IMG/VR virus record: IMGVR_UViG_3300037487_000141
Span: 1-27,593 of that record
Reading direction: 5' to 3' (one strand)
From: a virus
Length of the DNA: 27,593 nucleotides
A program made the translations under genes and the position numbers. Within the stretch, counting starts at the first letter, position 1. Each line of letters starts with the position of its first letter. Shown in pieces: positions 2,707-4,709 of this stretch. The notes beneath the pieces are model-generated. The model searched no databases, was not told the origin of the DNA, and worked only from the letters and a program-made list of their open reading frames with translations.

Positions 2707-3848
2707 TTAACTTCCTCCAACTCCACCACCTTCTTTGCCGCCTCGACAATATCTTCCGCTGTGATGTTGCGTAGCGCATTGCACCACATCTGCGTCTTCT
2801 TGGTTCGGTTGGTCGCGTCCTTACACTTGGCCTGCGGCAACCCCGCCTGCGGTCGGCAAGGCGCGTGCGGGCAGGTATCGGGCTTGAAGATGGGTACCGA
2901 TTTAGGATAATGTAAACAGCGGTCAGTTGGATCGTAACTTCCCCAAAGACTGACGCAGGCTGTATCCAACCCCGCTGCCATGTGTGTAACCGATGAGTCC
3001 GGCGCAACGACAAACTCTGCTCCTTGAATGACGGGGAACAGCGTGCGTATGTTGGCGGTCGCGTTAAACAGATCCACCACCCGCTTACTATCCACCCTAA
3101 AGTCAACTGACTTGTCCATTCCGATGATGACTGCGGAATGGTCAGGGAAGGCTTCGAGCAGAGCCTCCACCGCCAACTTACCCAGCGCAGGCGGGTAGGT
3201 ACGGGTCGGACCGCTGGAGGAAACATGGTAGGCAAAATACTTTGGCGGTAGCGGCCACACCCCGATCTTCTTTAGCTCGTCGGTGTCAGGCTGGACGGTG
3301 TAGATGTATGGCTTCTTATACTTGGCATCGACTAACCGAATATCCCCAGCCCTGCCATTTACGTCAGCCACAATCCCTTCCGCCCCCATCCACAGGTAGA
3401 TCCTGTCGTAGTGATTGCCAGGACCAGTGCCTAGCTCTGTGCCTCCTACCTTCCCGCTGAACAGATCATCCAGCGGAACGTGTGCCTCGTAACTAGCCCA
3501 CGCCTCAGCCGTTGGTGGTAAGGGCAACACCCGCGCTCCCAGCCCAGCGTACAAGGGCATATTGCGGGCAGGGCAGTAGACATCGACCGCACCCCCCGAA
3601 GTCTCGATTAGGTATCGGATAACACCCGTTGCCATGATCGCATCCCCGATTGCACCAGCGCGGTAGACCGCTGTTGTCCCGCCCTCGGCTCGGCCTGGGT
3701 AATACGGCTTGATTAGGTGCGGAATCGGTATCCCATCGGTAAACGGCGCGTTGACTAGCTCGTCGGGCAGGATGTAGCTACAGCGTGGCCACAGCTTATT
3801 ATCGTCGACGACGGTTACAGCGTTGGTGTTATTGGTCCATAGTTTCAT
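2703..3848 (-). CDS. Glycosyltransferase family 9 (heptosyltransferase-like)
   Basis: This 381-residue protein is predicted to transfer a sugar from a nucleotide-sugar donor. The N-terminal Rossmann half has the GT9 signature RAGAIGDAIMATGVIRYL (63-80). The C-terminal half has VVAPDSSVTHMAAGLD (280-295) followed by SLWGSYDPTDR (300-310), which is the donor-binding region of the heptosyltransferase/ADP-heptose family. A Cys cluster follows (TCPHAPC...KC...WC). The gene starts on an ATGA overlap with the DNA methyltransferase stop and ends on another, so its expression is probably coupled to read-through of the methyltransferase frame. GT9 enzymes usually build LPS. In this phage context the acceptor could be DNA (modified cytosine) or a host surface glycan; the sequence does not decide. 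Confidence 0.85.
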   Translation of the reverse strand: MKLWTNNTNAVTVVDDNKLWPRCSYILPDELVNAPFTDGIPIPHLIKPYYPGRAEGGTTAVYRAGAIGDAIMATGVIRYLIETSGGAVDVYCPARNMPLYAGLGARVLPLPPTAEAWASYEAHVPLDDLFSGKVGGTELGTGPGNHYDRIYLWMGAEGIVADVNGRAGDIRLVDAKYKKPYIYTVQPDTDELKKIGVWPLPPKYFAYHVSSSGPTRTYPPALGKLAVEALLEAFPDHSAVIIGMDKSVDFRVDSKRVVDLFNATANIRTLFPVIQGAEFVVAPDSSVTHMAAGLDTACVSLWGSYDPTDRCLHYPKSVPIFKPDTCPHAPCRPQAGLPQAKCKDATNRTKKTQMWCNALRNITAEDIVEAAKKVVELEEVK

Positions 3849-4709
3849 TTATTATCCTCCATTACTTTGTTGATGCATCTGATGATTTCTGCCGCGACTT
3901 GCGGGACGATGGCGTTGCCCAGTCCTTTAATTCGGTCCACCCTTCTGGGTATCCCATAAGCCACTCCACAAATGCTGGATTTAATCCTGCGCCTTTTGCC
4001 ATTGGGGTCTTCGATAAACGCCCAGTCCTTGCCATCGCTTCTAAACATTTGGATTGTTGACTGCTGCCCTGCAGTCTGTATTTGTGTTCGCTCGAAGTTG
4101 GGGTTGGCCATAAATCCAGAACACGACTCTCGGAAGTTGATCCAATCTGACTCTCTCTCTCTCTCTCTCTCTCTCTCTCTCTCTGCGCGAATCATCATTC
4201 CAGGCGTGTCCTTCCAATCTCTTGCGCTTGCTGTTGGCCACAATCCATACTCTGTCTCTTTTGTGCGGAGCATTGACGGCGCAAGCTGGAATAATGAAAG
4301 ATTCGACTTCGTAATCTTGCGCCTCCAAGTCAGTGTGGATTCTGTCGAGTGCCAAGTTGACGATGCCAGCAACATTCTCACCAATGATCCAAGTCGGCTT
4401 TGCTTCCCGTATAACGCGCAACATTTCTGGCCAGAGGTAACGGTTATCATCCTTGCCTCGTTGCTTGCCTGCGACGGAGAAAGGTTGGCATGGGAATCCC
4501 CCAGTGAGAAGAGTGACTCCTGCGTATAGCTCGCCTCGTACTTCGCGGATGTCTTGGTGGCACGGCACGTCCGGCCAATGCTTTTTGAGGACAGCTTGGG
4601 CGTAGGGTTCGTTGTCACAGAAGGCGAGCGTGCGGTATCCGTTCCACTTGGCTGCAAGGGCAAAGCCTCCGATCCCGCTAAAGAGGTCGAGGTGGGTAAG
4701 CTCATTCAC
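3845..4709 (-). CDS. Cytosine-C5 DNA methyltransferase, frameshifted at an (AG)17 tract (probably phase-variable)
   Basis: Transfers a methyl group from AdoMet to C5 of cytosine in DNA. The first part (GTG at 4709) has motif I DLFSGIGG (8-15), motif IV GFPCQPFS with catalytic C74, motif VI ENVAG (111-115) and motif VIII HKRDRVWIVA (149-158). It then enters an Arg-Glu repeat (from residue 176) and stops at 4041, before motifs IX and X. Those lie in another frame: YGIPRRVDRIKGLGNAIVPQVAAEII, ending at 3845, where the stop overlaps the next gene as ATGA. The frames meet at the dinucleotide tract 4151-4184. Adding one unit or removing two gives a continuous 288-residue enzyme, a usual phage C5-MTase size. 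GTG 4709 is the only start preserving motif I (an in-frame stop lies just upstream). As sequenced the gene is OFF, unless frameshifting or slippage occurs. Family certain; switching is inference. Confidence 0.9.
4151..4184 (-). repeat. Perfect dinucleotide microsatellite, (CT)17 on plus / (AG)17 on minus
   Basis: Seventeen uninterrupted CT units occupy 34 bases inside the methyltransferase gene, in the variable region between motif VIII and the target-recognition/motif IX part. On the coding strand this is (AG)17, read as alternating Arg-Glu in any frame, so it never creates a stop by itself. It sits exactly where the conserved protein changes frame. No comparable tract occurs elsewhere in the window. 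Such tracts vary by slipped-strand mispairing during replication. Confidence 0.97.

Follow-up and report, generated by a model that had tools for sequence, protein, structure and literature searches.

The split methyltransferase gene in the analyzed virus record (the window, 27,593 bases in full) is probably a phase-variable, two-subunit, overlapping-gene phage C5 cytosine methyltransferase, a reading based on comparative sequence analysis. In the proposed mechanism, motifs I-VIII and X, which serve catalysis and cofactor binding, would come from alpha (frame A). Beta lies in the +1 frame, where its overlap with alpha begins at approximately motif IV and stops near the alpha end, and would supply the target-recognition region and motif IX. 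Slipped-strand events during replication would alter the number of units in an AG tract, shifting both frames at once. A unit number that is a multiple of three would yield intact alpha and intact beta (ON); with the 17 units present in the window (2 mod 3), alpha would be truncated and the N-terminal part of beta would be fused to the C-terminal part of alpha (OFF); and 16 or 19 units (1 mod 3) would yield alpha motifs I-VIII fused to the C-terminal part of beta, without motif X, a state that is probably also OFF. This scheme presumes translation of beta, an active enzyme composed of alpha and beta, frequent slippage at the tract, and a benefit to the phage from switching its DNA methylation.

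The alpha gene extends from 4709 to 3845 on the minus strand, with its frames split at the tract. Its 5′ part (4185..4709) begins with a GTG at 4709 and carries the C5 methyltransferase motifs I-VIII, among them motifs I, IV (PCQ), VI, and VIII. The assignment to the C5 methyltransferases made in the first-pass annotation is upheld by several matches: PF00145 aligns with residues 5-166 of the 175 N-terminal residues of alpha (E 1.3e-40), TIGR00675 matches the 222-aa ORF, phmmer retrieves M.HhaI with alignment of residues 4-158 across motifs I-VIII, and the PHROGs family of frame A is phrog_363 (E 3.7e-64). The 3′ part (3845..4150, minus strand) occupies a frame of its own after the tract, comprising a linker and motif X (GLGNAIVPQVA, within RIKGLGNAIVPQVAAEIIRC) and ending at 3845; codon-position profiles indicate that frame A is coding at motif X. 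No near-identical phage record was found for the window in a search of a phage collection, and scans for promoters and terminators stayed at chance level.

The two alpha frames meet at 17 perfect AG/CT units (4151-4184, minus strand), a pure short-repeat tract within the coding region, read as Arg-Glu repeats in overlapping frames and representing the sole dinucleotide array of the window. The first-pass description of this junction proved accurate, as did its arithmetic. The N frame from GTG 4709 joins the 3′ alpha part solely when the unit number is a multiple of three, so that 18 units (also 15 or 21) would give a 288-residue protein; at 17 units, it runs out of frame through 4041..4150 to a stop at 4041, giving a truncated alpha of 222 aa. 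Motif X is consequently absent from the N-terminal polypeptide at 17 units and would join it at 18, and it lies in the same polypeptide as motifs I-VIII in relatives with intact frames. In contrast, the first-pass account of the reading frames, sound for the pieces of frame A, missed the third frame, which is also meaningful. The 17 units disrupt two overlapping frames in the window rather than one, since B corresponds to the frame of 4705 before the tract and to the third frame after it. With the tract located inside the A/B overlap, 18 units would therefore restore both subunits, and 17 break both; 16 or 19 units join the alpha N-terminus to the beta C-terminus. An ORF of 286 aa that is open at 17 units (3845..4705, minus strand) fuses the N-terminal part of beta to the C-terminal part of alpha and would be an off-state by-product.

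Frame B was traced on both sides of the tract. The 5′ part of beta (4185..4705, minus strand, +1 frame) starts at ATG 4705 or at an internal codon and includes LGSLVRMLLASSTWHSTESTLTWRRK, LFQLAPSM, and GLWPTASARDWKD, reaching the tract as LFQLAPSMLRTKETEYGLWPTASARDWKDTPGM. The 3′ part (3858..4150, minus strand, with its end approximate to a codon) reads in the third frame through LDLWPTPTSSEHKY and GLNPAFVEWLMGYPEGWTELKDWATPSSRKS, comprising a target-recognition-like module (WPTPTSSEHKY), a motif-IX-like segment (LNPAFVEWLMGYPEGW), and the end SSRKSRQKSSDASTK. When read across the tract, frame B matches phrog_1008 (E 6.9e-32), a family whose members here are devoid of the catalytic motifs despite its label 'DNA methyltransferase'. 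Among IMG/VR relatives, an intact frame A is usually accompanied by an open +1 frame B, which ends in LNPxWVEWLMG[FY]PxGWTxL, 38 nt upstream of motif X. The overlapping pair is annotated as two genes in the E. coli phage K1ind3, the Paenibacillus phage Diva, and phage Lily, described in K1ind3 as a C-specific methylase containing an 'Mte8-like protein' and in Diva and Lily as having an 'internal gene'. Searches of Pfam, NCBIfam, and solved structures with beta gave no usable match, and AlphaFold returned no confident fold for it (mean pLDDT 60, pTM 0.27). HHalign paired QLNPTWVAWLMGYP in the beta of a relative with the canonical motif IX RLTPREMFRLQGFP in a short and weak alignment (E 0.016, probability 2.8%). 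None of the subset of loci covered by this comparison has motifs IX and X together in a single frame.

The beta proteins often contain two to four tandem WPTP...D-type modules before motif IX (L041:3155-4012, L034:3155-3904, L055:3170-3979, L073:3176-4060). It looks as if recognition modules had been gained and lost, an arrangement that would suit multispecific methylation. The overlap layout also occurs on many contigs of bacterial genomes (L254-L326; Bacillota, Bacteroidota, and others), perhaps in prophages; one of these, L276, has a G8 tract and N-to-B frames, i.e., the alpha N-terminal frame runs into beta.

The length of the tract differs between closely related genes. A search with the flanking pattern recovered two further viral contigs carrying 10 (L090) and 19 (L091) AG units at the same site; over the gene, these and the window are 96-98% identical to each other, with AG length as the sole indel. 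Unit number thus varies among relatives, a comparison that the first-pass annotation had proposed. In a second allele group, G10 (L140) gives the N-to-B state, G11 (L139) joins N to A, and G12 (L131) leads N to a stop; L139 and L140 are 99.2% identical with one gap, within the tract, and L131 is 97% identical. Metagenome assemblies may miscount homopolymers by one base, which touches some of these G-tract cases and leaves AG10/17/19 unaffected. For the allele group of the window, the lengths seen were 10, 17, and 19, with no contig recovered at the 18 units of the ON state.

Across the family, slippery tracts (G, C, AG, CA, or AC) are located between motifs VIII and IX in approximately 43 of 186 distinct relatives, with A8 and in-frame runs of CAA excluded from the count. 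All four pieces (N and B before the tract, A and B after it) are stop-free in each of the 25 off-state tract genes scored, and the tract is the only defect; B is always +1 to A in these genes, and one tract class would therefore restore both. Strong slippery tracts number 37 in 119 kb within the gene compared to 7 in 751 kb of flanking DNA, a roughly 33-fold higher density in the gene. Within one clade, G, AG, CA, AC, or C tracts occupy the same site, and this variety of repeats suggests that selection favors slippage itself over any one sequence. These data bear out the part of the first-pass annotation that proposed phase variation by tract length. The simple on/off switch of one protein that it envisaged did not stand, as the tract switches a second, overlapping and conserved gene at the same time and three frame states occur. 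Four relatives (L010, L126, L188, and L191) carry two G tracts per gene (G9-10 and G8), approximately 342 and 467 nt past motif IV, and their frame state may depend on both.

In a different, three-state reading of the switch, the N-to-B fusion formed at 16 or 19 units is a working enzyme with a specificity of its own, so that the tract alters what is methylated. Both allelic relatives of the window (10 and 19 units) are in the N-to-B state, and this state is at least as common as the others among the approximately 43 tract genes (about 17 N-to-B, 16 N-to-A, and 10 N-to-stop, with L027 counted as N-to-B by its translation); however, these counts do not clearly depart from equal thirds. A related process has been described in Helicobacter canadensis, where a tract late in a gene swaps the C-terminal sequence (PMC2823697); the alternative ends there are mostly short, whereas the alternative frame in the phage gene is a conserved gene. 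The fusion lacks motif X, and in the AlphaFold model of the natural N-to-B fusion of L140, the catalytic part is good but the beta part is mostly below 50 and thus not confidently folded. Moreover, the fusion was never seen tract-free: L099 and L110 are N-to-B with a tract below the threshold, yet they still carry G7 at the same site, so that no lineage has fixed the fusion. On balance, the N-to-B product, which has motifs I-VIII and IX and the recognition module and lacks motif X, is probably inactive, and an enzyme of altered specificity is considered unlikely.

The preferred two-subunit reading depends on whether frame B is a gene, which was addressed in 54 tract-free, de-duplicated genes by shuffling synonymous codons while protein A was kept constant. 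Frame B contains 6 stops where 207±10 were expected, whereas the third frame is at expectation (704 observed vs 708±18); an earlier run with 69 genes led to the same result. In the reciprocal test with protein B fixed, the recognition region has 1 frame-A stop compared to 190±10 expected, in a set of genes that were partly chosen for an intact A. Relatives from bacterial genomes show 55 frame-B stops where 203 were expected, and eight canonical C5 methyltransferase genes, used as a control, show no suppression (210 vs 210). Along 67 relatives, the suppression of frame-B stops sets in abruptly at approximately 30 nt ahead of motif IV and ceases past the LMGYP motif, just beyond motif IX. An ATG is present at -38 in many diverse genes, near the start of B-frame openness upstream of motif IV.

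The substitutions per site between related pairs follow the same division. Up to motif IV, they fall mostly at the third codon positions of A (0.35-0.47 per site), and this A pattern is damped across motifs V-VIII (0.25-0.27). In the recognition region, they shift to the first positions of A, which are the third positions of B (0.365 vs 0.157), and these positions also dominate in motif IX (0.263 vs 0.137), before substitutions return to the third positions of A at motif X (0.417). On account of this profile, the evolution of the recognition region and motif IX is assigned to protein B and that of motif X to protein A. Judged by these patterns of stops and substitutions, frame B is a second gene inside alpha, i.e., an overlapping ORF under strong selection.

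These results weigh against a plain on/off switch of a one-protein methyltransferase with frame B as a non-coding by-product. Such a switch would agree with the location of all of motifs I-VIII and X in frame A and with the existence of tract alleles, but it does not account for the depletion of stops in B next to a third frame at expectation, for the fast, third-position-like change of the recognition region in frame B rather than A, or for the listing of B as its own gene in some phages; it is accordingly judged quite unlikely. Programmed ribosomal frameshifting from alpha, with the tract replacing or tuning a shift site that normally gives a beta-type C-terminus, would fit the +1 relation of B to A, and alpha joined to the C-terminal part of beta resembles the usual motif order as far as IX. 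In contrast, frame B is already open ahead of motif IV, a long way from the recognition region and often with the ATG at -38, and no common shift site was noticed on informal inspection, making frameshifting very improbable. Decay of the gene or an assembly error, with which the out-of-frame window allele would agree and which the first-pass annotation had raised in the form of relatives sharing the frameshift without the tract, is not what the relatives show and is extremely unlikely, because they carry the same gene with 10 and 19 AG units on highly similar flanks with no other indel, the 25 off-state genes have no other lesion, and slippery tracts are enriched in the gene.

Each element of the preferred alpha/beta model has a precedent. 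Lee, Kam and Shaw reportedly described in 1995 that the small gene of M.EcoHK31I is nested within the large one in a different frame. In this two-polypeptide C5 methyltransferase (YGGCCR), the larger polypeptide carries motifs I-VIII and X and the smaller one motif IX (PMC3404938), a layout that the phage pair appears to share. In contrast to that system, the gene here belongs to a phage and has a slippage tract within the overlap, and the recognition region, predicted in the large subunit of M.EcoHK31I, is assigned by its evolution to beta. M.AquI, another split C5 methyltransferase, also divides the motif set between two polypeptides (PMC3404938), but it has motif X in the smaller subunit, whereas the phage pair keeps it in alpha. 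Switching of a methyltransferase by an AG tract is known from M.MmyCI, in which (AG)10 or (AG)12 in the coding region sets activity through the frame (PMC3498834); this is a bacterial type III adenine enzyme for which the abstract describes no overlapping second gene, in contrast to the overlapping C5 enzyme of the phage. The pair in K1ind3, Diva, and Lily is the same phrog_363 (alpha) and phrog_1008 (beta) overlap, and no tract or switch is noted there. A search of the open-licence literature found no report of a phage C5 methyltransferase subject to phase variation, of a phage carrying this overlapping pair, of these elements in combination, or of a recognition region evolving in an overlapping frame.

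Phase variation has been described mainly in bacterial genes, whereas in the present case it looks recurrent in a phage enzyme family, in which different repeat kinds have replaced each other at one site and one slippage event would throw two overlapping genes together. The large-scale evolutionary evidence also indicates that many phage C5 methyltransferases have a genuine gene in their +1 frame, in which the recognition region resides. Bet-hedging by a phage between restriction systems that cut unmodified DNA and those that cut modified DNA becomes directly testable; the first-pass annotation had suggested that bursts could mix methylated and unmethylated virions and evade different restriction systems. 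Were the N-to-B fusion active after all, the tract would select among an alpha-beta heterodimer, an off state, and a one-chain fusion of alpha and beta that differs in activity or specificity, and a phage lineage would change its methylation pattern and not merely whether its DNA is methylated.

Several neighboring genes of the window were also noted. Directly downstream of the methyltransferase, positions 2703-3848 encode a 381-aa protein that has no PHROGs match and is glycosyltransferase-like by eye. Positions 5076-5771 match phrog_3704, labelled ferredoxin (E 1.4e-30), and positions 5672-6244 encode a 2OG-Fe(II) oxygenase-like protein (phrog_61, E 3e-20).
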